DNA of 35,619 nucleotides, taken from a virus. A program made the position numbers and the translations under genes. Shown piece after piece: positions 3,617 through 28,858 of this stretch; position 1 is the stretch's first letter, and each line of letters opens with the position of its first letter. The notes under the pieces were generated by a model that searched no databases, was not told where the DNA came from, and was given only the letters and a program-made list of their open reading frames with translations. The stretch is from positions 1-35,619 of IMG/VR virus record IMGVR_UViG_3300043015_000268; one strand, 5' to 3'.

Positions 3617-3636
3617 CCATTATTCACCCTTTCTAG
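3617..3636 (+). promoter_or_regulatory. Phage-type promoter candidate P1 (upstream of RNA polymerase)
   Basis: CCATTATTCACCCTTTCTAG matches the site at 33979-33998 at 18 of 20 positions and shares TCACC-N4-CTAG with others at 6172 and 7842. By comparison with T7/T3 promoters the final G (3636) would be +1. The transcript would then carry a 20-nt leader with GGAG before ATG 3657. The presence of this site implies that the polymerase can transcribe its own gene. Confidence 0.55.
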
Positions 3637-11710: not shown

Positions 11711-11861
11711 GAAGCCCAAACCTAAACTATGTGAGGCGTGTATCTACTTCTCAACAAGAGGTAAGGACCACTTCCGCACGTACTATTGTCGAAGGTATCC
11801 GAAAACAGAAACTGTAGTGCCTGATTACTGGTGTGGTGAATGGAAAGATAAACATGAGTAG
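11667..11861 (+). CDS. Small four-cysteine (zinc-ribbon-like) protein
   Basis: 64 residues starting inside the 3' end of the DNA polymerase gene (44-nt overlap). After a very basic N-terminus (KPTRKPKPK) come C22-x2-C25, C41 and C56, with aromatic residues between. Four cysteines in this order suggest a single zinc site, and DNA or RNA binding is plausible given the basic arm. Its role beside the replication genes is unknown. Confidence 0.6.
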   Translation: MARQKSATTGTKPTRKPKPKLCEACIYFSTRGKDHFRTYYCRRYPKTETVVPDYWCGEWKDKHE

Positions 11862-12585
11862 AACTATACTGATTGATGCTGACATCACCCTATACCAAGT
11901 CGCAGTTACCAATGAGGAACCCACAAGGTTTCACAACGGTCTATGGGTGCTGTGGGCAGACGAAGCTAAGACAAAGAAAGACTTTGATGAGGCTATCGAA
12001 AACATAGTGTCACAGACTAACGCCGACGATTACTTACTCTGTCTGACATCACCTACAAACTTCCGTAAGGACATCTTGCCATCATACAAGGGTAACCGTA
12101 AGGAATCCCGTAAACCTATGATGCTCCCGTTCTTACGAGAACATGTCATGAAGAACCACAAACATGACATGAGGGAAGGTCTGGAAGGTGATGATTTACT
12201 TGGTATTTATGGGACAGACCCTAACGCCAAAGATGAGCGTGTTATCTTTTCTGCCGACAAAGACATGAAGACACTCCCAGCTAAACATTGGGATACCGAT
12301 TGGGCTTTAGTTCGTGAGATAACTGAAGAGGAAGCTAATCGCTGGTGGTTATACCAATCACTGACAGGTGACACCACAGATGGATACAAAGGCTGCCCCA
12401 AGGTCGGGCCTGTCGCAGCTAACAAAATCTTAGACAAAGATTGTAGTTTTGATGCGGTGGTAGCGGCGTTTGAGAAAGCCAATTTGTCTATCTTTGAGGC
12501 AACACAACAAGCGCAGGTCGCAAGAATTTTGCGGTATGACAATTACGATCTAGAAACAGATACGCTAAAGGTGTGGGAACCATGA
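11854..12585 (+). CDS. T7 gp6-like 5'-3' exonuclease (FEN/RNase H-like)
   Basis: 243 residues from ATG 11854, with GGAAAG upstream; the start overlaps the previous stop. The acidic metal-binding residues of the FEN family are visible: D8/D10 (LIDADITLY), E111-D113-D114 (EGDDL), D135/D137 (SADKDMK) and D173/D176 (TGDTTDGY), with the H3TH-like GCPKVGPVAANKIL following. YKGNRKESRKP is the conserved basic region. In T7 this enzyme removes RNA primers and degrades host DNA. The stop overlaps the next start (ATGA). Confidence 0.9.
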   Translation: MSRTILIDADITLYQVAVTNEEPTRFHNGLWVLWADEAKTKKDFDEAIENIVSQTNADDYLLCLTSPTNFRKDILPSYKGNRKESRKPMMLPFLREHVMKNHKHDMREGLEGDDLLGIYGTDPNAKDERVIFSADKDMKTLPAKHWDTDWALVREITEEEANRWWLYQSLTGDTTDGYKGCPKVGPVAANKILDKDCSFDAVVAAFEKANLSIFEATQQAQVARILRYDNYDLETDTLKVWEP

Positions 12586-12851
12586 ATGGATTTGACGTTA
12601 TAGAGACTACCGATGAGGACATCGTGAAGCGGCCCTCACATTACACACGGTTCAAGATCGAACCTGTGACGTTCATTATGCGCAACGATCTGCCTTTCCA
12701 TACAGGTAACATCGTGAAGTATGCGCTACGTGCGGGTCACAAACTTTACCCACAGCAAGACAAGGTGGAGAGTGAGATAACTGATCTACGCAAGGTCATG
12801 CGTTACGCCGAAATGCGTATCAGCTTACTTGAAGGTGAGATGGAATTATAA
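12582..12851 (+). CDS. DUF3310 family protein
   Basis: 89 residues from ATG 12582, overlapping the exonuclease stop. The family signature is clear: KRPSHYTRFKIEPVTFI, then NIVKYALRAGHK and a helical C-terminus with DLRKVMRYAEMRI. DUF3310 (SaV-like) proteins are common in phages, often near nucleotide metabolism or replication genes; their biochemical role is not established. Confidence 0.85.
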   Translation: MNGFDVIETTDEDIVKRPSHYTRFKIEPVTFIMRNDLPFHTGNIVKYALRAGHKLYPQQDKVESEITDLRKVMRYAEMRISLLEGEMEL

Positions 12852-12853
12852 AG

Positions 12854-13528
12854 GTGCGTAAGAAAACCTATAAAGACAAAGTGCGAGAGGCTTCAGACAA
12901 TAAACAGGTGCAGCCTCTCCTACCCAAAACCCCAGCGCAAAAAAACTACATGGAATGTATCTACAGGTTTCCGCAAGTGTTCGTTACAGGACCGGCAGGG
13001 ACAGGTAAAACGTACATAGCCGCCGCAATAGCCGCTGACATGTTCAACAAACGACAAGTCACAAAGATTATCCTGACCCGACCTAACATACCGGCAGGTA
13101 AATCTTTGGGTTTCTTTGCGGGAACCATAGAGGACAAAATTGCGCCGTGGGTTGTCCCTCTGACAGAGGTATTGGAGCAACGACTAGGCAAGGGCCGCTA
13201 CGAGGTGGCCTTGAAACGCAAGGATATTGAGATCGTACCTTTTGAGGTTATGCGTGGTCGCTCATTCAATAATGCCTTTGTTATTTTAGACGAAGGACAG
13301 AACTTAACACCCCATGAAATGAAGATGTTCCTCACTCGAATAGGTGAAGACACAAAAGTTGTAGTCAATGGCGACCTATTGCAGCACGACCTGAAGCAAG
13401 ACTCAGGGTTAACCATAGCTATAGACCTGATATTTAAACATAATATTGAGGCGGCGGTGTGTAATTTTACACACGATGATGTCGTTAGGTCAGGTATTTG
13501 TGCGCAATGGACACGTGCTTGGGGATAA
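12854..13528 (+). CDS. phoH: PhoH-like ATPase
   Basis: 224 residues with a GTG start at 12854, two bases after the previous stop. Walker A is GPAGTGKT (46-53) and Walker B is FVILDEGQN (D146, E147). KIILTRPNIPAGKSLGFFAG, FEVMRGRSF and VVVNGDLLQHDL are characteristic PhoH blocks. phoH is widespread in marine phages, where a role in RNA metabolism or phosphate stress has been proposed but not settled. It closes the DNA metabolism block. A long inverted repeat (13457-13474) lies near its 3' end. Confidence 0.92.
   Translation: MRKKTYKDKVREASDNKQVQPLLPKTPAQKNYMECIYRFPQVFVTGPAGTGKTYIAAAIAADMFNKRQVTKIILTRPNIPAGKSLGFFAGTIEDKIAPWVVPLTEVLEQRLGKGRYEVALKRKDIEIVPFEVMRGRSFNNAFVILDEGQNLTPHEMKMFLTRIGEDTKVVVNGDLLQHDLKQDSGLTIAIDLIFKHNIEAAVCNFTHDDVVRSGICAQWTRAWG
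13457..13474. repeat. Perfect inverted repeat GTGTGTAA-TT-TTACACAC in phoH
   Basis: 8-bp arms separated by TT, 54 bp before the phoH stop. There is no following T-tract, so it is not an intrinsic terminator. It could be an mRNA hairpin or protein site just upstream of promoter candidate P4, or coincidence in coding sequence. Confidence 0.3.
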
Positions 13529-13544
13529 TCTTAACCGTTACTAG
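13525..13544 (+). promoter_or_regulatory. Phage-type promoter candidate P4 (start of structural block)
   Basis: ATAATCTTAACCGTTACTAG shares 15 of 20 positions with the site before the MazG gene and ends ACTAG like P2. It starts inside the phoH stop codon and lies 18 nt before ATG 13563, the first gene of the structural block. This is where a T7-type late promoter is expected. Confidence 0.55.
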
Positions 13545-13562
13545 ACCTAGAAGGGTAACTTC

Positions 13563-13754
13563 ATGTCTCAATTACCTAATATTGACAAAGTATTAGTCGA
13601 TTATCTTGATCGTATGTATCCCGATGTCTCCCCTGAACTGAACATGACCGAGCGTGAAATCTTTTTTCGCCGTGGTGCAGTAGATGTAGTCCGTACACTA
13701 CGTCGAATTTACTCAGAACAAAATGAAGACATATTAGGAATACAAGATGCTTAG
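13563..13754 (+). CDS. Conserved hypothetical protein (63 aa)
   Basis: AGAAGGG (13550-13556) precedes ATG 13563. The product is a soluble helical protein (NIDKVLVDYLDRMYPDVSPE, later EREIFFRRGAVDVVRTLRRI). I recall similar short proteins between replication and head genes in marine T7-like phages. The function is unknown. It overlaps the next gene by 8 nt. Confidence 0.6.
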   Translation: MSQLPNIDKVLVDYLDRMYPDVSPELNMTEREIFFRRGAVDVVRTLRRIYSEQNEDILGIQDA

Positions 13755-14163
13755 AGGAAATTTACTCCCACTCACAAACATGATCGCTGTCGATGAAATG
13801 TGGCCTCAAATTGAGGTATTCCTAGACCGCGTAGCTGATGAAAAAGTTTTGGTTGAAGACATCTATCAGTTTGTATCCGAGGGGCGTTGGATGTTGTGGG
13901 TATGTGAAGTACCAGACACGTTTGTTCTAACAACCGTTATAATCACTGAGTTCATTGAGTACCCACAGGTCACAAATTTAAGGATCATATTTTTATCTGG
14001 CGATGATGAAGATTGGGCCTATGGAATACATGTGTTTGAAGATTTCGCACGTATTAACAAGTGCCATTCTCTTGAGGTTCTTGGTCGTAGAGGCTGGGAA
14101 CGTGTTCTGAGAGAACGCGGTTACAAACTCAATTACATAACTCTTAGTAAACGGATATTATAA
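13747..14163 (+). CDS. GNAT-like hypothetical protein
   Basis: 138 residues. The second half (LRIIFLSGDDEDWAYGIHVF, then KCHSLEVLGRRGWERVLRER and GYKLNYITLSKRI) follows the strand-helix pattern at the end of GNAT acetyltransferase folds, where GRRGWERVL-x-G-Y is typical. An acetyl-CoA binding loop (Q/RxxGxG/A) is not evident, so catalysis is doubtful. Similar proteins occur just before the head genes in marine podophages. The role may be structural or regulatory. Confidence 0.5.
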   Translation: MLRGNLLPLTNMIAVDEMWPQIEVFLDRVADEKVLVEDIYQFVSEGRWMLWVCEVPDTFVLTTVIITEFIEYPQVTNLRIIFLSGDDEDWAYGIHVFEDFARINKCHSLEVLGRRGWERVLRERGYKLNYITLSKRIL

Positions 14164-14981
14164 TGTTTCTAATAGACCTAATTAAACCACAGATTGCTTT
14201 TGGAAGTGGCGGTGGTTCGTCAGGTGGTGGTGGTGGCGGTGGTGGTTCATCTAAATCATCCTCTTCCCAATCACGTTCTAAACGTACAGCACCTAAACCA
14301 GCTAAATCATCAGGCGGTGGTAAAGGAAGTAAATCATCATCGACACCTAAATCCAGTGGTGGTGGACGTAACCTAGACGCTGACATGTTTGCAGGGTCAG
14401 GATACGCACCGACAAAGAATGCCGGTACATCCAAGGCTAGTCAGGTTACATACACAAATGACTCATACGGCCCTAATCGCCGTGCAGTTCCTGTAACTGG
14501 TTCGACTACAAACTTTAATAGTAAAACAAGTGTTACAGCTAAAGACTTGGCTGATGGTAATGTCACAACGTTCAAAGCTAAGAACGGTACAGGATCACTT
14601 ACCGTTGCCCGTGGAACTGCATTTAACGATGCGCCACAAGTTGAAGTTGGCGGTCGAACAAATTCTGAAATTTACGACACTAAAGATGTTGCGACACCTA
14701 AGACAACTGCTCCTGTAAATACAAACACAGGCTCATCTTCGCCAGTTACAGCACCTGAGAAAATCGACCCACGTGATGGTGTAGGTGGTGGTCGAGATGG
14801 TGGTAAAGCTTCTCGTTTGAAAGCTTCTAAGACACAAGAAGACAAGATTGCGATTGAACGTAAGGCGGCAGGTACTGATCGATACAAGGTACGCGGTAAA
14901 CAAGCAGCGGCTGCGTCCATTAGAGGACAACGTGCAAACCCTATGTCAATTCGAAAGAACAGAAATAATCGGAGTGCCTAA
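14163..14981 (+). CDS. Gly/Ser/Lys-rich low-complexity protein, probably virion-associated
   Basis: 272 residues; ATG overlaps the previous stop (TAATG). After a short hydrophobic start (MFLIDLIKPQIAFG) comes a Gly/Ser tract with up to eight consecutive glycines (about 16-31), then a Ser/Lys/Arg-rich stretch to about 70. A Thr/Asn-rich middle follows, then a basic C-terminus (AASIRGQRANPMSIRKNRNN). It is largely disordered by composition. By position before the connector it may correspond to T7 6.7/7.3-type minor virion proteins; that is inference. Confidence 0.5.
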   Translation: MFLIDLIKPQIAFGSGGGSSGGGGGGGGSSKSSSSQSRSKRTAPKPAKSSGGGKGSKSSSTPKSSGGGRNLDADMFAGSGYAPTKNAGTSKASQVTYTNDSYGPNRRAVPVTGSTTNFNSKTSVTAKDLADGNVTTFKAKNGTGSLTVARGTAFNDAPQVEVGGRTNSEIYDTKDVATPKTTAPVNTNTGSSSPVTAPEKIDPRDGVGGGRDGGKASRLKASKTQEDKIAIERKAAGTDRYKVRGKQAAAASIRGQRANPMSIRKNRNNRSA

Positions 14982-14983
14982 AC

Positions 14984-15214
14984 ATGTGTTTTATGAATAG
15001 TCCAACTCCACCGCCTCCTCCCGCTCCACCCCCCGCTGCTCCCCCTGTATTAGAACAGGAAGCACCGGCGTTGAGCAATATGAGTGAAGAGGGTGACACA
15101 CTAACACGCCGCTCTCGCGGTATGAAAAGTTATAAGATTTCTAAAAGAAATAATTATACATCTGACAAAAACAAGTTGGGTGGCATGATGCAGAAATCAA
15201 AGTCAAACGTATAA
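14984..15214 (+). CDS. Proline-rich small protein, T7 gp7.3-like
   Basis: 76 residues with an N-terminal Pro/Ala tract (SPTPPPPPAPPPAAPP) and a basic C-terminus (RRSRGMKSYKISKRNNY). It lies directly before the portal gene. Short Pro-rich proteins beginning MCF occur at this place in many T7-like phages and correspond to gp7.3, a tail-assembly protein ejected at infection in T7. Assignment rests on position and composition. Confidence 0.5.
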   Translation: MCFMNSPTPPPPPAPPPAAPPVLEQEAPALSNMSEEGDTLTRRSRGMKSYKISKRNNYTSDKNKLGGMMQKSKSNV

Positions 15215-15231
15215 AGTCAGGAAGGTAAACC

Positions 15232-16815
15232 GTGCATAAAGGTGACGCTAATTGCGCTAAAAAGTACGAAAACCTATCCTCACACAGAACGACATATTTA
15301 GAACGGGCAAGAGAAGCGGCTAAACTAACTATCCCTTCTCTTGTTCCCGAAGAAGGTCATACATCATCTAGTAAATTCTACACTCCATATCAGGGTGTAG
15401 GGGCTAGAGGTGTGAACAACCTCGCATCTAAATTATTACTGTCATTGCTACCACCTAACGCGCCTTTCTTTGCTATGCGCTTGGACGATTTCACGATCCA
15501 AGAATTGTCGCAAACAGAGGGCGCACGTGCAAAAGTAGACGAAGCGTTAAATAAATATGAACGCGCTGTTATGACCGAGATTGAAAACTCAGGTATGCGG
15601 TCACCTATTTTTGAAGCACTAAAACAGTTAATTGTCGCAGGTAACGTACTTCTCTACCTTCCCCCAGAGGGCGGCGCACGGGTCTTTCCGTTGAGCCGCT
15701 ATGTAGTGAAACGTGACCCTATGGGTGAGGTCATTGAGGTTATTGTAAAAGAAACCATGTCACGGGTTACACTGCCCGAAGACATACAACAACTCTTGAT
15801 GGTTAAGGAAGGTGATCTTCCTAGCGAACAAAACAACAAAAAGACAGACGAAATAAATCTTTACACAAAGATGTACCGCGAGGGCGACAAATATATACTG
15901 TATCAAGAAATTGATGGTATGATCGTCCCTAAATCTCAAGGTAAATATCCCTTAGATAAAGCACCTATGCTTGCTTTGCGTTGGACACGCATTGATGGTG
16001 AAGATTATGGGCGATCATATGTAGAAGAATACATTGGCGATCTTATCTCTTTAGAGGGTCTGTCTAAAGCAATTCTTGAAGCATCTGCGGTATCAGCCAA
16101 AGTAGTATTCTTGGTAGCACCAAACGGTACTACACGTGCAAGAGACATTTCAAAAGCTGATAACGGCGCTATTGTATCAGGTAACGCCGCCGAAGTTTCC
16201 ACACTGCAAGTTGCTAAACAGGCTGACATGTCTGTGGCTTCTAGTACAGCATCAGTGATTACTGAGCGTCTATCCTTTGCGTTCCTAATGAACTCTGCGA
16301 TTCAACGCGCAGGTGAACGTGTGACAGCCGAAGAGGTTCGTTACATGGCAGGGGAACTAGAGGATGCACTCGGTGGTGTTTACTCAATTCTAAGTCAGGA
16401 ATTTCAATTACCATTGGTCAACCGCATCATAGCGAGGATGACTAAGAAGAAACGGTTACCCTCATTACCAAAAGGTGTGGCTAACCCAACAATCGTTACA
16501 GGTCTTGAGGCTCTCGGTCGTGGACATGATATGAATAAGTATCAAATGTTCCTAACGGCTCTCGCACCTCTAGGACCAGAAGCTGTCGGTCAGTTTATGA
16601 ACGTTGGTGATTACATCACCCGCGTAGGAACTGCATTGGGTATCGACATGGACGGTTTGATTAAATCAGAACAACAAATGCAACAAGAACGACAGATGCA
16701 GATGCAGATGATGCAACAACAGCAAATGGCTGAAATGGCTAAAGCTGGTGTTGGTCCAGTTGCTAAAGAAGCAGCCGGCGCAGTGCGTGAAGCTGTCGCA
16801 AGAAATGGTGAATAA
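15232..16815 (+). CDS. Head-tail connector (portal) protein, T7 gp8-like
   Basis: 527 residues (T7 gp8: 536), with a GTG start at 15232 and AGGAAGG at 15219-15225 as ribosome binding site. T7-type portal blocks are visible: FYTPYQGVGARGVNNLASKL, LLSLLPPNAPFFAMRL, ALKQLIVAGNVLLYLPPEGG and RYMAGELEDALGGVYSILSQ. The C-terminus is Gln/Met-rich (QMQMQMMQQQQMAEM). It forms the dodecameric channel at one capsid vertex through which DNA is packaged and ejected. Confidence 0.95.
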   Translation: MHKGDANCAKKYENLSSHRTTYLERAREAAKLTIPSLVPEEGHTSSSKFYTPYQGVGARGVNNLASKLLLSLLPPNAPFFAMRLDDFTIQELSQTEGARAKVDEALNKYERAVMTEIENSGMRSPIFEALKQLIVAGNVLLYLPPEGGARVFPLSRYVVKRDPMGEVIEVIVKETMSRVTLPEDIQQLLMVKEGDLPSEQNNKKTDEINLYTKMYREGDKYILYQEIDGMIVPKSQGKYPLDKAPMLALRWTRIDGEDYGRSYVEEYIGDLISLEGLSKAILEASAVSAKVVFLVAPNGTTRARDISKADNGAIVSGNAAEVSTLQVAKQADMSVASSTASVITERLSFAFLMNSAIQRAGERVTAEEVRYMAGELEDALGGVYSILSQEFQLPLVNRIIARMTKKKRLPSLPKGVANPTIVTGLEALGRGHDMNKYQMFLTALAPLGPEAVGQFMNVGDYITRVGTALGIDMDGLIKSEQQMQQERQMQMQMMQQQQMAEMAKAGVGPVAKEAAGAVREAVARNGE

Positions 16816-16817
16816 AA

Positions 16818-17552
16818 ATGGTCGAACAAGTAGTTATCGACACCTCAGAGGAAAACTCTGGTCCTACACTTGAGCAACAAGCTTCCGAAATGGAAGAACA
16901 ACAAACTGAACAAGTGGATGACCGGCCTGAGTGGTTGCCAGAAAAGTTCAATTCGGCAGAGGATATGGCACGTGCATATTCTGAACTAGAAAACCGAATG
17001 AGTTCTCAAGAGAATGAACAATACGAAGACGATGCAAGATCAGAACTTGATAATGTAGGCGTGGATTACGATGCTCTATCTCAAGAATTTTGGGATAACG
17101 GCGATCTCTCTCCAGAAAGCTATGATTTGCTAGATCAAGCGGGGATACCACGTGAGATTGTTGATAGCTACATCGATAGTCAACTAAATGCAGTTGATGC
17201 ACAACGCGGTCAGATAATGAATGAGGTCGGCGGCGAAGAAGGTTACTCTGAGTTAACCGAGTGGGCCGCTGACAACCTTGAAGACAATGAAATCGACTAT
17301 TTCAATTCAGTGATGGACACCAATGATTGGCAAGCTATTCAGATGGCGGTTCGCGCCGTTGCCGCTCGTAAAGATGCTGCAATGGGTATGGAACCTGAAC
17401 GTAACCTATCTGGAAGCTTGTCTGGTGGCGGCGGTGGTTCTTACGAAAGCGTTAACCAGTTAATGCAAGATATGCAGAACCCGATGTATGAAAACGATCC
17501 GGCTTTCCGTGCGCAGGTCGAAGCAAAACTTGCGAGGTCAAACATTCTTTAA
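16818..17552 (+). CDS. Capsid assembly scaffolding protein, T7 gp9-like
   Basis: 244 residues, very acidic (EEQQTEQVDDRPEWLPEKF near the start), which is typical of scaffolds. RPEWLPEKFNSAEDMARAYS is a block shared by T7-like scaffold proteins. The C-terminus has a Gly-rich linker (SGGGGGS) and a helical tail (NPMYENDPAFRAQVEAKLAR), as in the capsid-binding end of the family. It lies two bases after the portal stop. It directs procapsid assembly and then leaves. Confidence 0.9.
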   Translation: MVEQVVIDTSEENSGPTLEQQASEMEEQQTEQVDDRPEWLPEKFNSAEDMARAYSELENRMSSQENEQYEDDARSELDNVGVDYDALSQEFWDNGDLSPESYDLLDQAGIPREIVDSYIDSQLNAVDAQRGQIMNEVGGEEGYSELTEWAADNLEDNEIDYFNSVMDTNDWQAIQMAVRAVAARKDAAMGMEPERNLSGSLSGGGGGSYESVNQLMQDMQNPMYENDPAFRAQVEAKLARSNIL

Positions 17553-17716
17553 TGTCGCTTTACGAAAACATTAAAAACAAACAGAACCGAATAAAGAATG
17601 GTTCTGGTGAACGGATGCGTCGAAAAGGTGAAAAGGGTGCGCCCTCTGATACCGATTTCAAAAACGCAGCTAAAACTGCAAAACCAACCGACATGAAAAT
17701 TAAGAAGAAATCATGA
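17552..17716 (+). CDS. Small basic conserved phage protein (54 aa)
   Basis: ATG 17552 overlaps the scaffold stop by one base, and the stop overlaps the next start (ATGA). The product (MSLYENIKNKQNRIKNGSGE, then RMRRKGEKGAPSDTDFKNAA and KTAKP) is basic. I recall very similar short proteins near structural genes in marine T7-like phages. The function is unknown; DNA association or a minor virion component is possible. Confidence 0.65.
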   Translation: MSLYENIKNKQNRIKNGSGERMRRKGEKGAPSDTDFKNAAKTAKPTDMKIKKKS

Positions 17717-17943
17717 GTAAATCAGGACGAGTATATTCAGCATACGATAGAGAGTATCAGGCTCGTCCTGAACAGGTTAAGAAGCGTGTTTCACGCAACA
17801 AGGCTCGTCGTATGATGATCTCTAAACATGGTAAGTCTAAACTATCTGGGAAAGACATTGATCACTCAGACGGTAACGCAACAAACAACACAAATTCTAA
17901 TCTGAAAATCATGGATCGCTCAAAGAACAGAGCGAAAAAGTAG
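17713..17943 (+). CDS. HNH-endonuclease-like small protein
   Basis: 76 residues, basic. DIDHSDGNATNNTNSNLKIM resembles the second half of an HNH motif (DH...N...N), preceded by KARRMMISKHGK, which may bind DNA. A classical Cys-rich or full His-Asn-His module is not complete, so catalytic activity is uncertain. It sits between scaffold and capsid genes. HNH genes at such junctions are often free-standing mobile endonucleases, but related phages also use HNH proteins in packaging. Confidence 0.6.
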   Translation: MSKSGRVYSAYDREYQARPEQVKKRVSRNKARRMMISKHGKSKLSGKDIDHSDGNATNNTNSNLKIMDRSKNRAKK

Positions 17944-17988
17944 GGGGTCTTCGGACTCCCTCGCTACGCCGCTTATTAGTGGGTGGCG
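17943..17988 (+). other. Two consecutive RNA hairpins before the capsid terminator
   Basis: Hairpin 1 pairs GGGGGTC (17943-17949) with GACTCCC (17954-17960) around a TTCG tetraloop. Hairpin 2 pairs CGCTAC (17962-17967) with GTGGCG (17983-17988), with an inner CGCT/AGTG stem and TATT loop. The first begins on the last base of the preceding stop codon. They could be RNase III-type processing sites or 3'-end stabilisers of the upstream transcript. Confidence 0.5.
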
Positions 17989-17991
17989 AAA

Positions 17992-18025
17992 TGAACATTC
18001 TAGGCCAAGGGTGTTCACTTTTTTT
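17992..18025 (+). terminator. Intrinsic terminator upstream of capsid gene
   Basis: TGAACATTCT (17992-18001) pairs with AGGGTGTTCA (18008-18017), ten pairs including two G-T, around the loop AGGCCA. CTTTTTTTC follows immediately (18018-18026). This is a textbook rho-independent terminator on the + strand, 126 bp before the major capsid ATG. Confidence 0.8.
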
Positions 18026-18151
18026 CATCTAACTCAACAAAGCAATTATTACGTTATGGCCCCTTACGAGGGATAACCTTAATGGAAAGAAAGCAAATGG
18101 TGACGTTAGAAAAATCCTAACAACCTAACTCTTTTTCCAAGGTGAAATAAA
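18026..18151 (+). promoter_or_regulatory. Capsid gene leader, expected to hold a promoter
   Basis: 126 bp between the terminator and the capsid ATG. Since a strong terminator precedes it, the region should contain a promoter for the capsid gene, but no copy of the CTAG-ending promoter motif is present. GGGATAACCTTAA (18072-18084) partly resembles GGGATAATCTTAA in candidate P4. GTTAG (18105-18109) and CTAAC (18117-18121) could pair. AAGGTG just before ATG 18152 is the ribosome binding site. Confidence 0.35.
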
Positions 18152-19108
18152 ATGTCTAATGCAAATCCATCCCGCGTGGGTCAGGCCGGATTAACAGGTG
18201 CAACCGATGCTCTGTTCCTGAAGGTCTTCTCAGGCGAGGTAATGTCTACTTTCAACGCTCAAACAGTGATGAAAGAGAAAACACGTATTCGTTCTATCAA
18301 TAACGGTAAGTCTGCACAGTTCCCAGCAATCGGTAAAACAGTTGCTGAGTACCACACAGCCGGTGCCGAAATTCTTGGTAACAACATCGAACACGGCGAA
18401 AAAGTTATCACAATCGATGATCTATTGATTGCGAACACTTTCATTGCAAACATCGATGAAGCCAAGAACCACTATGATGTGCGTTCAGAATACTCTAAGC
18501 AAATGGGTCAAGCCCTAGCACAAACATATGACCGCAACTTGCTATCTATGGCAATTAAAGCCGCACGTGACCCATCAGGTCTAGGTGCTGGTGTTGCAGG
18601 TCAAGGTAACGCAGCGTCTGAAACACTAGGTTCAACAACACCTACAACTGACGCTATTGTTACTGCTATGTATGATGCGGCGGCGACTCTAGACGCAGCA
18701 AACATTCCTGAAACGGAACGTTATGTCCTTGTTAACCCAGCGACATACTACGCTCTAGTTCAGAACGATAAACTGATTAACCGTGACTTCGGTCAAAACG
18801 GTTCATACTCTGACGGCACAATCATGCGTGTCGCAGGTATGCAAATTGTTAAATCTAACAACTTGACAGTGGATCACACAGCTTCAACAGCTTATCCAGA
18901 CTTCAACTCGAAGTATGCTGTGGATGCCTCAGACACATCTGCACTTGTCATCCAGCGTCAAGCGTTGGGTACAGTTCAGTTGATGGATATGGCAACCGAA
19001 ATGGAATACGACATTCGTCGTCAAGGTACACTAGCTGTATCTAAGATGGCTGTCGGTCACGGTGTATTGCGCCCAGAGTGCATCATCGAACTACGCGCAG
19101 CGTTATAA
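18152..19108 (+). CDS. Major capsid protein, T7 gp10-like
   Basis: 318 residues (T7 gp10A: 345). The T7-like capsid pattern is clear: ALFLKVFSGEVMSTF, RIRSINNGKSAQFPAIGKTV, then IDDLLIANTFIANIDEAKNH, and the late block YVLVNPATYYALVQNDKLIN. It has the HK97-type fold of the family by homology. The gene stands alone between two intrinsic terminators with a 126-bp leader, which fits strong independent expression of the most abundant virion protein. Confidence 0.96.
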   Translation: MSNANPSRVGQAGLTGATDALFLKVFSGEVMSTFNAQTVMKEKTRIRSINNGKSAQFPAIGKTVAEYHTAGAEILGNNIEHGEKVITIDDLLIANTFIANIDEAKNHYDVRSEYSKQMGQALAQTYDRNLLSMAIKAARDPSGLGAGVAGQGNAASETLGSTTPTTDAIVTAMYDAAATLDAANIPETERYVLVNPATYYALVQNDKLINRDFGQNGSYSDGTIMRVAGMQIVKSNNLTVDHTASTAYPDFNSKYAVDASDTSALVIQRQALGTVQLMDMATEMEYDIRRQGTLAVSKMAVGHGVLRPECIIELRAAL

Positions 19109-19115
19109 AATTAGA

Positions 19116-19150
19116 TGGCCTCTCTAGTTAACCTAGAGGGGTCATTTTTT
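19116..19150 (+). terminator. Intrinsic terminator downstream of capsid gene
   Basis: A 12-bp stem (19116-19127 with 19133-19144, two G-T pairs) around the loop TTAAC is followed by TTTTTT (19145-19150). It corresponds in place to T7 terminator T-phi, just after gene 10. Read-through would express the tail genes at a lower level. Confidence 0.9.
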
Positions 19151-19168
19151 ACATTTAAGGGAAAACTC

Positions 19169-19762
19169 ATGGCAACTCTACTGACCCCTACGACAGAACT
19201 AGAAGCTGTCAACGTGTGCCTTGCGAACATTGGCGAGTCGCCAGTGAGTTCCATTACAGGTGATACCGTAGTTGACGCGGCTCTTGCTAGAGACTTAGTT
19301 CGTCAGGTAACACGTGAAACACAGACACATGGGTTCTATTGGAACACAGAACTTAGTTACAAACTAATTCCTAACACCTCTGAAAACCTAGTTCTACCTG
19401 CTAACATCTTATCGGTGGACACTACGTTGAGTGATAAGGATAAAGACTTGGTAGCGCGTGGTCGTCTTCTTTATGATCGCCGCAATCACACATATAATTT
19501 TAAACAACCTGTTACAGTAAACATCATTGTTGCTCTAGGTTTTGAAGAACTTCCTGAAATTGCTAGACGTTATATCGCTGTACGTTCAGCACGTATCTAT
19601 CAAGAGCGTGTTATGGGTAACGGCGCAGTATCAGCTTTTAACGCTGCCGACGAAGACATGGCGCGGGCTGCGTTGTTAGCTGAAAACATGGAAGTTGAAG
19701 ACAATAACATGCTGTCAGGAAACACCGCTGTATCAGGTATTCTTGCCCGTTCAGCTTATTAA
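19169..19762 (+). CDS. Tail tubular protein A, T7 gp11-like
   Basis: 197 residues from ATG 19169 (MATLLTPTTELEAVNVCLAN), almost exactly the T7 length of 196. AAGGG at 19157-19161 is the ribosome binding site. An upstream in-frame ATG at 19115 would lie inside the terminator hairpin and is rejected. ANIGESPVSSI and the TQTHGFYWNTE block are typical of the family. The protein forms the gatekeeper ring between portal and nozzle. Confidence 0.93.
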   Translation: MATLLTPTTELEAVNVCLANIGESPVSSITGDTVVDAALARDLVRQVTRETQTHGFYWNTELSYKLIPNTSENLVLPANILSVDTTLSDKDKDLVARGRLLYDRRNHTYNFKQPVTVNIIVALGFEELPEIARRYIAVRSARIYQERVMGNGAVSAFNAADEDMARAALLAENMEVEDNNMLSGNTAVSGILARSAY

Positions 19763-19773
19763 AAGGTGACATA

Positions 19774-22092
19774 ATGCCCCTAGTTTCAACTACGGTTTCC
19801 AACCTAATTAGTGGTGTTTCACAACAGCCGGCACCTCAACGTCTACGGACTTCGGGTGAGGAAATGAAAAACGCCTATCCGTCTGTTGTTGCTGGATTGC
19901 AAAAAAGACCACCTACACAATTTGTATCCGCGTTGAACACAAACGTTCCAGACGATGACACAACAGCGGTTCATGTAATTAACAGAGACTTTGAAGAACG
20001 ATACATTGTTATCGGCGGTAGCGGCGATCTTGAAGTATTTGACACTGATGGTGTTAAGAAAACGGTGACGTTTCCTGATGGTAAATCTTATCTACCCACC
20101 AGCGACATGTGGAAAAAGCTAAGATTTGTTACAGTAGCTGATACGACATTTATTCTAAACACAGAAAAAGTCACAGCAACTCAAGCAGTGACAGAAACTC
20201 GCGCTGATCCGAGTGCTACAGCTTCGGTATTTATCAAACGTGCTGTCGCATCTACAACATACGCTATCTACATTAACAATGTTTTAGCCGCGACCACTTC
20301 GACTGAAGACAACACCACAGCATCCACAGCACTAGAGGGTACATCTGATATTGCAGAAGAACTCAAAGCAGATGCAATAAGTCGAGGATACACTGACGCA
20401 CAAACCTTTGGACCAACACTGACATTCTCTGTACCCGCTGGTGCCCAAATACGTGTTCTCGACCAATTTGGTGGTAACGCGATGGAAGCGTTCACTGATC
20501 GCATACAGTCATTCGATAAACTACCACCACAAGAAAAACAGGGCCGCATTGTACAAATTAAGGGTAACCTTAACGATGCTACTGAGGATTATTGGGTAGA
20601 ATTTGACAATAACGTTTGGATCGAAACTGTAGGATATGATGCAGGTGAAACCTTTAATCCAGCAACTATGCCTCATGTTTTGATTAGAAACCCAGATGGA
20701 ACATTCACGTTTCAACAACACACGTGGGATGAAAGATCAGTAGGTGATGCAGACACTAACCCAGCACCTAGTTTCGTCGATAAAGCAATTAGTTCGATGT
20801 TTCTATTTAAAGGTCGAATGGGTTTTCTTTCTGAGGAAAACCTTATTATGTCGGCTGTGGGTGAACTAGAAAGTTTGTATCGCAGTACCGTTGTACAAGT
20901 TTTCGCATCTGACCGAATTGACGTAGCTTCAACGACAGGTAGGGTGAACAACCTTTACCACGCAGCGGTCTTTTCGGACACTTTGGTTCTATTCTCAGAT
21001 AGCCAACAATTTAAACTTGTGTCTGAAAACGTGTTATCGCCGCTGTCGGTTGGTATCGTTCCTTCGACTAAGTTTGCTTGTTCACCTTACACCGCTCCTG
21101 TGGCCTCCGGTCCAATCGTATTCTTTGTAACTGACGGTGCTACTAACTCAACGGTTCGAGAGTTGTATATCGATGAAGAACTAAAGACCATCGATGCGGA
21201 TGAGATAACGGTTCAGATACCCAGCTACATACCAAACGAGGTCAGGACACAGGCTGTGTCTACATATGATGACGTTATGGTTCAGCTATCCGCATTAGAG
21301 CCTAGTAAGCTTTATGTATATAAGTGGTACACAAACGGCGGCGAAAAAGTACAAACGGCTTGGTCACATTGGGACTTTGGCGAAGACACCATTATTATGG
21401 GTTGTGAGTTTCTAGAAGACTTTTTGTATGTCGTCTACAAAACAGGTGGTCAGATGTACTTGGATAGAATGTTCTTGGATACTAAGCCTGTAGACAAGGC
21501 GTTGTTAGATCATAGGGTAGAAGAATCTGCCATGACAATCACTTACAATGCGACTGATGATAGAACGGAAATCGTTTTACCGTACTCAACTCCAGCGACC
21601 TTACAATTCTATAAAATGGAAGACCCCAAGGGTCAGTTAATGCACGTTACAAAGGTAGCTGACAATGAGTATCATTTAGCTGAAGTTGACGCTACTACTT
21701 GGACGATCAACGCTGGCGTACCTTATACTTTTGAATACATCTTTTCTCCTCAATACATTCGAGAAGATACACCTACAGGTGAGGCGGCAATTCAAGAAGG
21801 TCGCGTACAACTACGTTACATGTCTCTGATCTACATGGACACAGCGTTCTTCAAAATATTGATCACACCTAAAAACAACCAAACTTTTGAGCATCTCTTT
21901 AACGCCCGTATACTTGCTGACGAAGATAACATTGCAGGTTTGATGCCTAGAGATACAGGAGAATACAAATTCCCTGTGTTTGCGCAAAACGACAGAGTTG
22001 AAATTAAAATTGTTAACGACAGCGCGTTCCCTTGTGCCTTTGGTTCAATGGAGTGGACGGGTATGTATGTAGGAAAATCACAGAGGTTATAA
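19774..22092 (+). CDS. Tail tubular protein B (nozzle), T7 gp12-like
   Basis: 772 residues (T7 gp12: 794). The N-terminus (STTVSNLISGVSQQPAPQRL) and GLQKRPPTQFV are the usual start of the family, and DERYIVIGGSGDLEVFD-type beta blades follow. AAAAGGTGAC precedes ATG 19774. It forms the hexameric tail nozzle through which DNA is ejected and to which the fibres attach. The stop overlaps the next start by one base. Confidence 0.94.
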   Translation: MPLVSTTVSNLISGVSQQPAPQRLRTSGEEMKNAYPSVVAGLQKRPPTQFVSALNTNVPDDDTTAVHVINRDFEERYIVIGGSGDLEVFDTDGVKKTVTFPDGKSYLPTSDMWKKLRFVTVADTTFILNTEKVTATQAVTETRADPSATASVFIKRAVASTTYAIYINNVLAATTSTEDNTTASTALEGTSDIAEELKADAISRGYTDAQTFGPTLTFSVPAGAQIRVLDQFGGNAMEAFTDRIQSFDKLPPQEKQGRIVQIKGNLNDATEDYWVEFDNNVWIETVGYDAGETFNPATMPHVLIRNPDGTFTFQQHTWDERSVGDADTNPAPSFVDKAISSMFLFKGRMGFLSEENLIMSAVGELESLYRSTVVQVFASDRIDVASTTGRVNNLYHAAVFSDTLVLFSDSQQFKLVSENVLSPLSVGIVPSTKFACSPYTAPVASGPIVFFVTDGATNSTVRELYIDEELKTIDADEITVQIPSYIPNEVRTQAVSTYDDVMVQLSALEPSKLYVYKWYTNGGEKVQTAWSHWDFGEDTIIMGCEFLEDFLYVVYKTGGQMYLDRMFLDTKPVDKALLDHRVEESAMTITYNATDDRTEIVLPYSTPATLQFYKMEDPKGQLMHVTKVADNEYHLAEVDATTWTINAGVPYTFEYIFSPQYIREDTPTGEAAIQEGRVQLRYMSLIYMDTAFFKILITPKNNQTFEHLFNARILADEDNIAGLMPRDTGEYKFPVFAQNDRVEIKIVNDSAFPCAFGSMEWTGMYVGKSQRL

Positions 22093-22553
22093 TGACAGGT
22101 TACGTCCGTGAAACCCAACAAAAAGACTTGGATCATCTAGGTTACAATTTAAGGGATGCGGATGTAAGTGAGTTATACGCTCAGACAGGTTTGAAACCAT
22201 ACATGGCGTTACACCTAGCGTTAATCCTATGTAAACGTATGAAAACAATGGTAGCCCCTGATGGCACTCCTGTGGGTGTCTATGGGGTTACCGATACAGA
22301 TAAAATAGGTCTGGGTAACATCTGGATGATGGCGACCCCAGACTTACTAAAACATCAAAGACAATTTCTTCGAGAATGCAGAGAGGGTATCTCTGAGATT
22401 TCTCAGGGGTACAAGTGTGTATATAATTACACAGACGCACGTAACACGGTCCATCATAAGTGGCTAAAGTGGTGCGGGTTTACCTTCATTAATAAACACA
22501 AGAACTTTGGTAGGAATGGAGAGTCATTCTACGAGTTCGCTAAAATATTGTAG
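22092..22553 (+). CDS. Internal virion protein A-like (T7 gp13-like, GNAT-related)
   Basis: 153 residues from ATG 22092. The middle and end (IGLGNIWMMATPDLLKHQRQ, then HHKWLKWCGFTFINKH) match the phage gp13-like family, whose pattern resembles a degenerate GNAT acetyltransferase. Position between nozzle and gp14-like genes is as in T7. In T7, gp13 is needed for virion assembly although it is a minor component. Confidence 0.8.
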   Translation: MTGYVRETQQKDLDHLGYNLRDADVSELYAQTGLKPYMALHLALILCKRMKTMVAPDGTPVGVYGVTDTDKIGLGNIWMMATPDLLKHQRQFLRECREGISEISQGYKCVYNYTDARNTVHHKWLKWCGFTFINKHKNFGRNGESFYEFAKIL

Positions 22554-22562
22554 GACATAGAT

Positions 22563-23042
22563 ATGGACCCAATTACATTAGCCGCTGCTTCGGCTGGATT
22601 TAACTTATTAGGTAGTATCTTTGAGGTAAACGCTCAGAACCAAGCCGCGTTAAATAATGCAGCGATGGCGAGACAAGCCGCCGCATATAAATACGATCAA
22701 GAGATGGAAGGTTATGTTGAATATAACCGTCAACTTCTGATGCAAGCTATGGACCGAGCGTTAACTGCACGTTCAAACACTGATCTAGCAATGGTTAGCA
22801 TGTTTGAAACAGGTGGTGGCGGTCAAGTAATGTCAGATATGATTGCAGAGCGGAGATCAGTCGAAGCCCGTAATCTGTATCGTGATCGTTTAGAGCGTAA
22901 TAGCCTCAAAATTCAAACAAGACGCAATCTTCAAGGTTACGAAGACGAAGCCAAGGGGCGTATTGCACAAGTCCCAACAACCTCGCTCAACATGGGACAC
23001 ATTGCGTCTGCTGCGACAGCGGGTCTTCCGTACTTAGCATAA
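22563..23042 (+). CDS. Internal virion protein B, T7 gp14-like
   Basis: 159 residues (T7 gp14: 196). It starts DPITLAAASAGFNLLGSIFE, a hydrophobic, membrane-active stretch, followed by long Ala/Gln/Arg-rich helices (ALNNAAMARQAAAYKYDQEM). In T7, gp14 forms a pore in the outer membrane during genome ejection. Position and composition match. Confidence 0.85.
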   Translation: MDPITLAAASAGFNLLGSIFEVNAQNQAALNNAAMARQAAAYKYDQEMEGYVEYNRQLLMQAMDRALTARSNTDLAMVSMFETGGGGQVMSDMIAERRSVEARNLYRDRLERNSLKIQTRRNLQGYEDEAKGRIAQVPTTSLNMGHIASAATAGLPYLA

Positions 23043-23051
23043 GGTATCGAC

Positions 23052-25202
23052 ATGGCACCAAGAATTACTCCAGACACTCCTCAACGGGGAGCGTCACAAA
23101 ATCTATTGCGTGTCATCGACAACTATTATCGCCCAGCGCGGGACCGTGTCGGTGAGGCAGCAATGTCTAGGGGCTTTCGCGATGTTTCTAACTTCTTTGG
23201 TAATGAAGCTGCGAAAGCGAAAAAAGAACAACTAGAACAGATACAAACAAAAGCACAACAGGACGCTATGGCGGGACTTGATCCAGACCAAGAACTGTCT
23301 GAAGTTCGTAACGGCTTTCTGTTTAGGTCAAACTCTAAAGCATATAATCAAGCCTATAACGAAACTATGGGTAAAAAGGCGGCTATTGAGTTCAAAGAAC
23401 AAGCCACATTGGAATACGAAAAGTCGGGCCTAAAGTATAACACAGACCCTAACCGTTTCCGCGAGTGGATGAACGAAAAGGTTCACGGGTTTCTCAAGAA
23501 TCCTGAACACAACAACCCGTATTTTCTCGCGGGTGCTATGCCATATGTTCAACAGGCTACGTTTAACATGTCGGCGGCGCACACAGGTAACATCTCGCGT
23601 CAGATGGAAGCTAACCACTTATCGGCTATTCAGAAACAAGCTGATGACATTGCTATGAGCATTGCCACAGGTGAAATGTCTATAGAAGACGGTTTAGGCG
23701 CGTTGACTAAATTGAATGGTCAAGCATATGGCACAGGTTTCAGTGGTCCTAAATCCCGTGCAGCCTTGCTAACATCTTTCCTCACTGTCGCTGACGCTAC
23801 AGACAACATGGAAATGATCGATGCTCTGCTTGAGGCTCAGAAAAGCGGTGATCTTAAACTTACACCGAAAGAGTGGAATGCTGTCGTAAATCAAAGCCAA
23901 GGTATTCAACGTGATATTCAGTTTAGAGCGGATCAAAAAGAACGGGCTGCTAAAGCTGCACGTGAACAAGAAGAAGCGATGGTCACAGACGTAGTAGCGG
24001 ATTTCTATAACAACCCGCAAAACGCCGCTGTTCCATTTCAAGTATTCTTGCAAACACCTGTGGGTGACTCAGGGCAAACTATGGCTGACATGATCAATGG
24101 TAGTGCGAATACGGCTGCGTTGATGACTAAAGCTAAGACAGCCTATGAGACTATCAACACGATCTACGACATACCTAAACCTGTCGAACTAGGGAACAAC
24201 TACGCGATTACTGAAGCGTTTGAGAATAGTGAAATAACTGACATGGCATCTATGATGTCGTGGTTTCAAACAGCCCAAAAAGATGGACTACAGTTCAATG
24301 ATAAAAATTGGGAACACGCTTACGGTCAGTTAGAGAAGTTCGGGGATGATGAACAACCATACAAAACCCAGACTTACAAAGACTACAAAACACCGGCTCT
24401 TAACCGTATCATTGGTGCGCTAACGCCGGATGAAAACGCTCTAAGCTTTAGCTTTGAGGGTGAATACCAAGGTGGTATGTCAGATGACATCAAGATACGT
24501 TTCCAGAGTTATCTAGACGAAGCACTTGGGGCAATCCCAGAGGCATCACAGAAAAACCCTGAGTTGATCCGTAAGGCTATCGAACTTGCTGAACAGCAAA
24601 CTATGGACTTCTACAAACAGAACGATCCAAGCCTGTTTAACAAGCAATTCGAGTCATTCACGGATGCAGTAAACAAAGGTACGGTATCTTGGACATCTAA
24701 CCCATACTTTGCTCAAGAAGCCGCACGTTTGGCTGAAGAGCAAGCGGCAGCGGTGGCTGAACAGACACTTAACATGGAAGCCGCAAGGTCATCTGAAACT
24801 GTACCGTTTGGTCGGACTGATCTGGATATTCAACGTGGTAATGCAATTTTAGACGGTAAACCAAAAGATCAAGGGTATATTGCTCCTACTATTGGCGCAA
24901 CCGAGTTAAACCAGCCTAAAATCCGAAACGCACAACCTGAATCCGGTATCGATTTGGAAAAAGTGATTAAGGGTGACGCTACAGAAATTGAAAAAGCAGT
25001 TGAAACTGTAGTGAAAGCAATACCGGCTGATGTCGATTACGGAGCAATGCTTAATGATCTTCAACAAAGATATGGTTTCGAGTTGCCAAAAACATACGGT
25101 GATGTAGCTAAACTTGCCAACGTATTAGCAGGGATTGCAGACGTTAATCCTGATGACGTTGAACAGCTATTGCAAGCCGCTATGGAAAGCATGAGACAAT
25201 AA
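23052..25202 (+). CDS. Internal virion protein C, T7 gp15-like
   Basis: 716 residues (T7 gp15: 747). Mostly long amphipathic helices; the N-terminal part contains SRGFRDVSNFFGNEAAKAKK and DPDQELSEVRNGFLFRSNSK, a pattern seen in related gp15 proteins. AAGGTATCG precedes ATG 23052. In T7, gp15 with gp16 builds the periplasmic tunnel and ejection motor. Assignment rests on size, position and helical composition. Confidence 0.85.
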   Translation: MAPRITPDTPQRGASQNLLRVIDNYYRPARDRVGEAAMSRGFRDVSNFFGNEAAKAKKEQLEQIQTKAQQDAMAGLDPDQELSEVRNGFLFRSNSKAYNQAYNETMGKKAAIEFKEQATLEYEKSGLKYNTDPNRFREWMNEKVHGFLKNPEHNNPYFLAGAMPYVQQATFNMSAAHTGNISRQMEANHLSAIQKQADDIAMSIATGEMSIEDGLGALTKLNGQAYGTGFSGPKSRAALLTSFLTVADATDNMEMIDALLEAQKSGDLKLTPKEWNAVVNQSQGIQRDIQFRADQKERAAKAAREQEEAMVTDVVADFYNNPQNAAVPFQVFLQTPVGDSGQTMADMINGSANTAALMTKAKTAYETINTIYDIPKPVELGNNYAITEAFENSEITDMASMMSWFQTAQKDGLQFNDKNWEHAYGQLEKFGDDEQPYKTQTYKDYKTPALNRIIGALTPDENALSFSFEGEYQGGMSDDIKIRFQSYLDEALGAIPEASQKNPELIRKAIELAEQQTMDFYKQNDPSLFNKQFESFTDAVNKGTVSWTSNPYFAQEAARLAEEQAAAVAEQTLNMEAARSSETVPFGRTDLDIQRGNAILDGKPKDQGYIAPTIGATELNQPKIRNAQPESGIDLEKVIKGDATEIEKAVETVVKAIPADVDYGAMLNDLQQRYGFELPKTYGDVAKLANVLAGIADVNPDDVEQLLQAAMESMRQ

Positions 25203-25210
25203 GGAAAATC

Positions 25211-28200: not shown

Positions 28201-28846
28201 TGACGAGGCATTCCGCGAGGTGCGTAGCACTTTAGACGCATTGCAGTCACGCACAGGGCTTTACGAAGGTGTCGATCCAAAGCGTAACGTTCTTGGTGAA
28301 ATCATTGAACGCCCTACGCCGAAGTACGACCCAATGGGGTTGTCCAATATCGGTAACTACAGGGAAAACGACATGGTTCTAGGTGAACTAAGCCGTGTCT
28401 CAATGATGGATCGTTCAGCGTTCTCTCAATTTGGTTCATCGATCTTCATGAATGGTAAGAATGAAAACCTAAAAGACATGCCATATCAAGGCGGTCCTCA
28501 ATCGATTTACGATAAGGTTTTAGAACAAACATCAACAACCAAAATTGATGGATTAACACTCAGAGAAAAACTTGCGGAAATCATTACATCTGATGATTAC
28601 AAGAGAGCGATTGATGGTGCGCAAGGGCTAGGCTCTAAAGGTACTAAAGGTCAGATTATAAGCACGGTTATTAAAGCTTACCGCGATAAAGCTAAGTATG
28701 AAATTCCAGAATACATGGAAGTTCTAAAGCGTAGCGAAGAAAGCAAAGTTGAAACAATAAAATCTCAACTGATTGAACAAAGACCTAATATTTCTCAACA
28801 AAGTTTAGAACGCTTCAAACGCTTTAACGAAGTATTCACAGAATAA
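25211..28846 (+). CDS. Internal virion protein D, T7 gp16-like, without transglycosylase domain
   Basis: 1211 residues (T7 gp16: 1318). The N-terminus has two tandem related motifs (LFENRNDPNVLAAFNQRFGA at about 11-30 and LKENSDNQAAIMAFDKMHGA at about 60-79). Two Gly/Ala-rich hydrophobic helices lie at about 100-130 and 185-220. I do not see the catalytic pattern of the lytic transglycosylase that begins T7 gp16. The C-terminal half includes MVNHFRINALLSGIGTQQVN and FRFVVPFVRTPINILSQSFQ, typical of gp16-like ejection proteins. AAGGAAAA precedes ATG 25211. Confidence 0.88.
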   Translation: MDNNQGQPSQEVLDRLFENRNDPNVLAAFNQRFGANAAENYLNDTASATLENEALVIPQADITYLKENSDNQAAIMAFDKMHGAGQAQAILTPTQQTQTEERPSYGADILQGIAAGAEDIVTGTIKFGSWVGDSLFGVQPRVVWGDGQGLRIISGEEFLKLQEQGMTNPEGFDYIADAETMVGGFAQGVTTFAVPYFGMFGKIAKSGKVFQGIMAGAVIDGTIINPDDPNLTATLEALGADTGIVGELLATDPDDPEWMNRAKNMAEGGVLGLALESVFYGLKAAKAKKAGNLEEAQEYLDQAKAVSQSIDQEIDSVAQAATKDAETTIEMTKRLFPEEEVDGQMTLDLEGTVPQSKEAIEKAVKVPYRLTSEQIENIRMMTKIGDLDPQDAAQAVKLSFRSVDTMNDYDDVLSQMSAVKHVMEKEFLEMRGGDVQRWSTVKAQTTRRVRHMADMLGKDPEAFLEEMTGGFKDVPYHKLAAEVAAKDRMLLAMELEIKELGQMIDSGKVTGNYQSMEEVIMAFNARREVAANVLMSVDAARANVGRALNAMKMSRTADKKLREMIKNAASNSDARAVAKAVVNSDQPLKTSLRLGKSLQKTMDMVNHFRINALLSGIGTQQVNLIGTAVNSVMIPMQQILGGQVKHGVRTLAYQLSSSLEALQMAGKAFMDDTSILDVLSTKFDMTDDIAKGRKGLGMKVISSPSRFLLAMDEFFKQATYRGRISADAAMEADNAGLKGAERAEFMRKYILDSFGKNGEAIRADALLQSQRSSFTESLEAGSIGQKFQSLGRGEGVGSAMFRFVVPFVRTPINILSQSFQNMPVLQFASKRFRDDLYSGDPIRAAQARGKIYTGFALLGLGYFLAGRGDFTGSGPTDPRIRAEWLKNNQPYSIKISRDDGSFYWMSYQRLEPLANVLSILADANEVIRDPYNERETSKQNVVAALALAIAENTVNKTFTKGLADTFALMMGDPIKSERALYSIAGSFVPNILNQTNGDEAFREVRSTLDALQSRTGLYEGVDPKRNVLGEIIERPTPKYDPMGLSNIGNYRENDMVLGELSRVSMMDRSAFSQFGSSIFMNGKNENLKDMPYQGGPQSIYDKVLEQTSTTKIDGLTLREKLAEIITSDDYKRAIDGAQGLGSKGTKGQIISTVIKAYRDKAKYEIPEYMEVLKRSEESKVETIKSQLIEQRPNISQQSLERFKRFNEVFTE

Positions 28847-28858
28847 CAGGAAAGTTAA

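Follow-up and report, generated by a model that had tools for sequence, protein, structure and literature searches.

A conserved structured RNA before the capsid gene of many T7-like phages and its possible role in capsid mRNA processing

Genes and flanking hairpins of the capsid locus

The window (the whole stretch of DNA that was analysed) is a virus record of 35,619 bases, from a marine virus of bacteria. The phage record closest to it is that of the cultured Roseobacter phage CRP-118 (85.7% over a 3.2-kb query). The features of the capsid (MCP) locus are collected in Table 1.

Table 1. Features of the capsid locus and its leader in the window
Feature	Position	Strand	Basis or remark
Nearest upstream copy of the promoter-like motif	13532..13545	+	4.6 kb 5' of MCP, one mismatch
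Small HNH endonuclease gene, 5' of the leader	17713..17943	+	Named after syntenic CRP-118 gp27
HP1, GGGGUC-UUCG-GACUCC, directly 3' of the HNH stop	17944..17960	+	Clade alignment
HP2, 5'-bulged hairpin, UCGCUAC-g-CCGCU-UAUU-AGUGG-GUGGCGA	17961..17989	+	Fold, relatives
HP3, terminator-like hairpin (10 pairs, GGCC in loop) and T7 run	17992..18025	+	Sequence, relatives
UUUCAUCU, predicted P0 partner of Shine-Dalgarno region 18140-18147	18023..18030	+	Clade fold
Extended imperfect stem around the core	18053..18083 (18053-18057 / 18079-18083)	+	Flank pairing
Leader core, 21 nt	18058..18078	+	Alignments, covariance model
Core P1	18058-18059 / 18077-18078	+	
Core lone C	18060	+	Opposite AYAA 18073-18076
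Core P2, loop UACG 18065-18068	18061-18064 / 18069-18072	+	
HP5, GAAAG/CUUUU-type stem 18085-18089 / 18133-18137	18085..18137	+	Clade alignment
HP5 inner stem, GUUAG/CUAAC	18105-18109 / 18117-18121	+	Clade alignment
Shine-Dalgarno region, AAGGTGAAA	18139..18147	+	Sequence
MCP gene, 318 aa	18152..19108	+	94.3% identical to CRP-118 capsid protein
Post-capsid terminator-like hairpin and T6 run	19113..19150	+	Sequence

Judged by sequence, the hairpins on either side of the capsid gene have the form of intrinsic (rho-independent) terminators. HP3 has a stem of 10 pairs with a 6-nt loop (17992-18017, -10.3 kcal/mol), followed by TTTTTTT at 18019-18025, and with its T-run lies 126 nt 5' of the MCP ATG (18152). 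The post-capsid hairpin (19113-19147, -20.9 kcal/mol) has 14-15 pairs, and TTTTTT is found at 19145-19150. Both had been reported in the original prediction and both are present. HP3 is a stable hairpin with a U-run directly 3', and both parts are kept in relatives: the T-run in 17/17 aligned relatives of the window's clade, the stem with 95.6% of pairing and one pair changed on both sides. Only three pairs of this stem are G-C (terminator scan). The number of terminator-like sites in 10001-29000 was not above chance (16 vs 14.1 +/- 4.1 in shuffles); the two capsid-flanking hairpins rank first and third in stability among the 32 T-rich positions of the window.

Promoter search

A phage promoter-like motif of the TTAATCACCNTTWCTAGA type, common to the window, CRP-118, CRP-403 and CRP-804, was found at 3624, 6179, 7849, 13532 and 33986 of the window. 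The copy at 13532 is the nearest before the capsid gene, in agreement with the earlier statement that none precedes it closely. Set against a T7-type capsid unit, the window has the terminator after the MCP gene and no phage promoter motif closer than 4.6 kb upstream. As had also been stated, phage T7 has the downstream terminator only; TE and Tphi are the only terminators annotated in its record, in which phi10 lies 63 nt before gene 10. No sigma-70-like site was found by scanning the + strand of 17943-18151. A hidden promoter in the leader was rejected as a candidate, the sigma-70-like and the phage-promoter-like scans both being empty there. The promoter of another type that the original prediction had considered possible gains no support, what is conserved in the leader being an RNA structure with compensating changes; nor does anything point to the anti-termination control that it had also considered. 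The structured leader that it had described is real, and its extent had been missed, the whole leader being a conserved multi-hairpin RNA.

Structure of the leader in the clade of the window

Seventeen distinct leaders of the window's clade were aligned (alignment A3) and their consensus was folded. The fold contains HP1, HP2, HP3, the core, HP5 with its inner stem, and P0. Of all cells in the 52 named pairs, 96.7% keep their pairing (94.5 +/- 0.2 in shuffles), nine pairs are changed on both sides where 2.5 are expected, and covariation is 0.154 (0.111 shuffled; slid versions never above 0.088). The leader of the window itself folds more stably than all 200 shuffles (z -3.43). Compensating changes are present in HP1, HP2, HP3, P1 and P2. 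In HP1, 99% of cells are paired in the 17 relatives and 3/6 pairs are changed on both sides. HP2 is a helix of 7 + 5 pairs whose sole bulge lies in the 5' strand (-17.9 kcal/mol); its nine counted pairs are 100% paired in the 17 relatives, two of them with changes on both sides.

The support for P0, HP5 and the inner stem is conservation, compensating changes being absent from all three. HP5 is 100% and its inner stem 98.8% paired, and neither is changed on both sides. In P0, 94.9% of cells are paired without a compensating change, which leaves this helix unproven, and its pairing decays where the Shine-Dalgarno sequence diverges. TTTTTTCATCTAAC (18019-18033 of the window) is invariant in 17/17 relatives, a conservation that exceeds the needs of a terminator. 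It would be explained by pairing with the Shine-Dalgarno sequence, yet this pairing fails in locus L032 while TTTTTTCATCTAAC stays.

Structure and covariation of the core

The core has the form NGG-C-P2-AYAA-CCN, the P2 hairpin being usually UNCG-looped, and this form is kept in leaders of MCP relatives that were recruited by protein alone. Loci L120-L197 were found by the motif, so that their fixed letters are no evidence of conservation. Redundant rows (leaders >75-80% identical) were left out of the counts.

In an alignment of 87 cores, 84 of them distinct (alignment A2), 504/504 cells (100%) are paired and 91 cells are changed on both sides, as against 27.3 in shuffles. Covariation is 0.467 (0.164 shuffled, reached in 0 of 500; at most 0.227 in slid versions), and 4/6 core pairs covary. 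The search pattern placed no constraint on columns 20/27, in which CG was counted 32 times, UA 24, GC 21, AU 5, GU 1 and UG 1. The presence of G-U pairs on this strand speaks more for an RNA than for a DNA site. In A2, P1 is mostly GG/CC, with GA/UC in seven rows; by eye, AG/CU was seen in further leaders, GAG/CUC in Syn5, AAG/CUU in P-SCSP1i and UUG/CAA in P-SSP7. In both Prochlorococcus phages AYAA is replaced by AUAC.

The flanks of the core pair as well. Their mean energy in 97 leaders is -18.1 kcal/mol, compared with -14.7 +/- 0.31 kcal/mol when the downstream flanks are dinucleotide-shuffled, and the native pairing beats at least 19/20 shuffles in 39/97 rows. The outer stem is clear in this energy test and stands only about 2.6 sd over permuted partners in a test of the single best helix. 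Openness of the ribosome site is slightly reduced relative to shuffled leaders (0.488 vs 0.530, P 1.5e-4; lower in 63/97). By eye, the leader of L108 apparently carries two copies of the core motif. A possible mimicry of rRNA, through a resemblance to the peptidyl-transferase strands, was also considered.

Distribution of the core

The core sits about 60-150 nt 5' of the MCP gene in IMG/VR contigs whose MCPs go down to about 50% identity. It also occurs in cultured roseophages, pelagiphages and cyanophages, in LUZ100 and in Rhizobium phage Pasto. Viral contigs were then scanned with the motif only, and the downstream MCP was called by profile (E<1e-3). At least 119 stretches were found. Eighty places were examined among the matches listed: 78 precede an MCP gene, nearly all at a distance of 78-147 nt, and two are cut by contig ends. 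In L131 the motif lies 612 nt before the MCP, which is split by an insert, the first exon being in place. The pattern was met 21 times in 257 Gb of cellular genomes, and three of these occurrences precede an MCP gene. A chance origin of the motif was rejected on the basis of these two scans.

With a covariance model of the core (E<0.01), 78/97 MCP-recruited IMG/VR loci had a match positioned at the MCP leader; the matches listed outside the MCP leaders of these 97 loci had E >=0.014. The model was also run on about 22 cultured-phage or complete records, window included. Matches at the MCP leader had E<1e-4 in the window, CRP-118, CRP-403, CRP-804, HTVC304P, CRP-125 and CRP-171 and were weak (E 0.027-0.25) in LUZ100, Pasto, P-SCSP1i and HTVC134P. 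No MCP-leader match was obtained in T7, SP6, phiKMV, ICP3, Yersinia phage Rambo, phTUNSv and Ponderosa, and the sole match in Laguja-5 (E 8.4) overlaps the gene start. Syn5, S-CBP3 and P-SSP7 were missed by the model; core variants are plain in their leaders. When loci were recruited by MCP type, the core was found in 49/53 LUZ100-type loci searched (80 fetched, E<=0.1), in 21/46 Syn5-type loci searched (50 fetched) and in 0/80 T7-type loci. The structural descriptor alone misses 9/50 MCP-recruited leaders and fires in 138/1200 random stretches.

One of the 49 LUZ100-type loci, L304, has a split MCP gene. In L304 (about 517-1195), L305 and L131 the capsid gene is split at the same place, after residue 55, by an insert of about 500-600 nt, which in L304 encodes an HNH-type protein (by eye). 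No group I intron was found here at the Rfam cut-off.

Comparison of the leader with Rfam 15 at curated cut-offs gave no leader match in the window or in 20 diverse loci. For the leader of the window, a search at E up to 5 returned only sub-threshold freshwater-2 (E 3) and SOX2OT_exon1 on the minus strand (E 4.7). The only Rfam match in the 20 loci was a group I intron (E 1e-13) at 2669-3278 of L084, where the capsid gene ends or directly behind it. The leader is classed as a cis-acting mRNA leader of a family that is not in Rfam. It is not described in the literature searched, which left bioRxiv and most subscription journals outside its scope, and the word 'capsid' is absent from the main texts of two structured-RNA surveys.

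Elements upstream of the core

According to passages of PMC11143913, RNase P acts efficiently on hairpins made of acceptor stem, T-stem and T-loop, and its targets include some phage RNAs and mRNAs. HP2 has the shape of such a substrate, with a helix of about 12 pairs, a continuous 3' strand and an interruption of the 5' strand. It is without a 7-nt T-loop or a 3' RCCA, the loop being UAUU and the stem being followed by AAT. HP2 is proposed to be a processing or tRNA-mimic hairpin.

The shape of HP2 recurs in several other clades; a bulged or tRNA-like upstream element was not found in all of them. Among 95 leaders, 13 have a 5'-bulged hairpin with a score >=26, compared with 3 in the mirror image and 0-2 in shuffled sequences; over all rows the excess is modest (mean 14.6 vs 13.4 for the mirror). 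With larger 5' insertions (score >=28) it is weaker, at 22 vs 11 in the mirror image and 2-4 in shuffled sequences, and tRNA-likeness is therefore not claimed across all clades. The LUZ100-type hairpin has the form outer-(GC or AC)-ACUGGC-loop-GCCGGU-outer', in which the outer stem varies yet stays paired. Its pairing is kept in 12 distinct sequences from 27 loci, and the Pasto version reads ACUGCC/GGCGGU.

Only four tRNAs were found in 245 records. Three of them belong to non-redundant leaders whose upstream sequence is long enough, and their ends lie 259-285 nt 5' of the MCP gene; L305, fetched later, has a further tRNA upstream of its MCP. T-arm-like hairpins lie directly 5' of the core in 21/27 Syn5-type leaders (by eye). 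T-arm-like sequences within 330 nt were counted in 12/127 leaders, about 3 being expected, and several look accidental. With the mascRNA model, Syn5 reaches 23.4 bits (E 0.014), short of the family cut-off of 42.5.

Other elements were seen near the leaders. Hairpins with a GACG tetraloop precede the core in 9/95 leaders (L034, L038, L067, L069, L076, L079, L095, L097 and L154) and in 0/457 control windows. Glutamine-II riboswitch matches above cut-off lie a few hundred nt before the MCP in L220 (695-747, E 4e-8) and L129 (2348-2401, minus strand, E 5.7e-6). An abiF RNA match exactly at cut-off was obtained at 63-122 of L305, near the tRNA 5' of the MCP. Small ORFs with a YRGVxY motif were seen by eye upstream of the MCP in L129, L142, L242 and P-SSP7.

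RNA 3' ends mapped in LUZ100

According to passages of PMC10134795, -60 to +40 was inspected around each RNA 3' end of LUZ100. The 100-nt terminator features of the LUZ100 record were taken as these stretches. Read in this way, T4, T12, T16 and T19 fall in or beside U-rich runs, which supports the reading. T14 (20829) then lies 2 nt 5' of tRNA-Asn, and T15 (21030) coincides with the bulge of the conserved capsid-leader hairpin. The position of T14 suggests that the list includes processing sites, in which case T15, published as a termination site, may mark cleavage 5' of the capsid leader. T15 lies inside the hairpin, about 6-7 nt from where RNase P would cut the outer stem, and this 3' end names no enzyme. 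Its place in the LUZ100 leader suggests processing of the RNA and not a second promoter. In passages of the same paper, the LUZ100 MCP is said to have its own nearby phage promoter and, downstream, a strong terminator. Promoter phi7 lies about 560 nt before it, so processing need not be the sole source of capsid mRNA in LUZ100.

Discussion

We read the region as one copy, that of the window, of a composite 5' leader RNA which is conserved at the MCP gene in many T7-like phages and in many clades has a 5'-bulged hairpin, a tRNA or a tRNA-like hairpin before its core; the capsid mRNA would be released by processing, and we give this reading a probability of slightly under one half. The recurrence of the leader in distant T7-like viruses suggests a shared, previously undescribed way to make capsid mRNA. 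Most clades that carry the core are without an upstream T-run (by eye). HP3 with its T-run appears to be an addition peculiar to the window's own clade, inserted between the proposed processing hairpin and the core. Since the T-run is limited to this clade and the core and the bulged or tRNA-like hairpin are widespread, the explanation should rest on the latter two.

Long late transcripts from a distant phage promoter would be cut at the upstream element by host enzymes, perhaps RNase P or another endonuclease. The downstream product would start with stable hairpins, be protected and act as a discrete capsid mRNA, whose ribosome site may be modulated by the fold of the leader. The core would be recognised by a factor that many hosts share. 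Against this reading as a whole, the conserved AYAA/C loop is more what one expects of sequence-specific binding than of a plain processing stem. In the window's clade, the terminator-like HP3 would end part of the transcripts before the capsid gene. A working HP3 would lower, not raise, capsid mRNA, and would fit a high capsid output only if stability or translation favours the read-through RNA.

One alternative is that the core is a translational operator, its C/AYAA loop being bound by a protein of the phage (capsid, scaffold or another) or by a ribosomal or RNA-binding protein of the host, so that capsid synthesis is matched to assembly. Protein operators are typically bulged hairpins with invariant unpaired bases and free stem letters. 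The core is such a hairpin, it is always tied to the MCP gene among the motif matches listed, and the lower openness of the ribosome site also counts in favour of this alternative. However, the effect on openness is small, the core lies 60-150 nt from the start codon, and it is kept while the MCP drops to about 50% identity, and we hold an operator to be unlikely. Self-cleavage, by the core with its flanks or by the bulged hairpin, would suit a small conserved internal loop and the LUZ100 3' end inside the conserved bulge. No Rfam ribozyme matched in the window or the 20 diverse loci and no shared arrangement of further helices was found, which makes it very improbable.

Two other explanations start from the hairpins around the capsid gene. 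Were they terminators and the gene an isolated transcription unit with a cryptic promoter of another kind, the position of terminator-like hairpins on both sides and the exact conservation of TTTTTTCATCTAAC would be understood. But the interval holds no promoter-like site, its conserved letters form a covarying hairpin, and the T-run is limited to the window's clade while the core is not; this arrangement seems improbable. A cis-acting anti-termination or pausing element, by which the phage RNA polymerase passes or recognises the flanking hairpins, would be a structured nascent RNA between two terminator-like hairpins, and phage HK022 has cis-acting anti-termination RNAs. Against it, the upstream T-run is missing from most core-bearing clades and the core from T7, which has a similar polymerase and Tphi, and we give such an element little credence.

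Release of the capsid mRNA by processing, as preferred here, can be carried further, to a proposal that is possible but doubtful. The leader would belong to a new RNA class that makes capsid mRNA through the host tRNA-maturation machinery: an upstream tRNA, tRNA mimic or bulged minihelix would be cut, and the invariant C/AYAA core would be the receptor of a universal host factor, by which the released message is stabilised or boosted; this would take the place of the local capsid promoter of T7. If true, the class would span T7-like phages of alpha- and gammaproteobacteria and of cyanobacteria. Such phages make the capsid protein in larger amounts than any other product, and how it comes to exceed its neighbours is understood mainly for T7. 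Where no capsid promoter is close, the leader would offer phages a general solution. It supplies a direct tag by which capsid genes can be located in viromes, connects tRNA-like elements with the processing of phage mRNA in a way that can be tested, and may be of use as a portable leader for expression.

Comparison with known systems

In T7, gene 10 stands between phi10 and Tphi. The window likewise has a strong terminator-like hairpin after the capsid gene and a special leader before what in T7 is the most highly expressed gene; it differs in the distance of the phage promoter motif, and T7-type MCP loci differ in being without core matches. The 12-pair HP2 is interrupted on the 5' strand only (7 + 5), as are RNase P model substrates and mascRNA, phage M3 RNA and C4 RNA. 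Its 4-nt loop, without T-loop or CCA, sets it apart from tRNA-like processing elements; tRNAs or T-arm-like hairpins stand at the equivalent place in other clades. The capsid leader of the Pseudomonas phage LUZ100, studied by ONT-cappable-seq, differs from that of the window in its long P2, a true tRNA, phi7 upstream and the absence of a terminator-like hairpin between bulged hairpin and core. In LUZ100 itself, the RNA 3' end mapped in the bulge is labelled a terminator in the record. Both leaders have the core and the 5'-bulged hairpin, and both capsid genes are followed by a terminator or a hairpin of that form.
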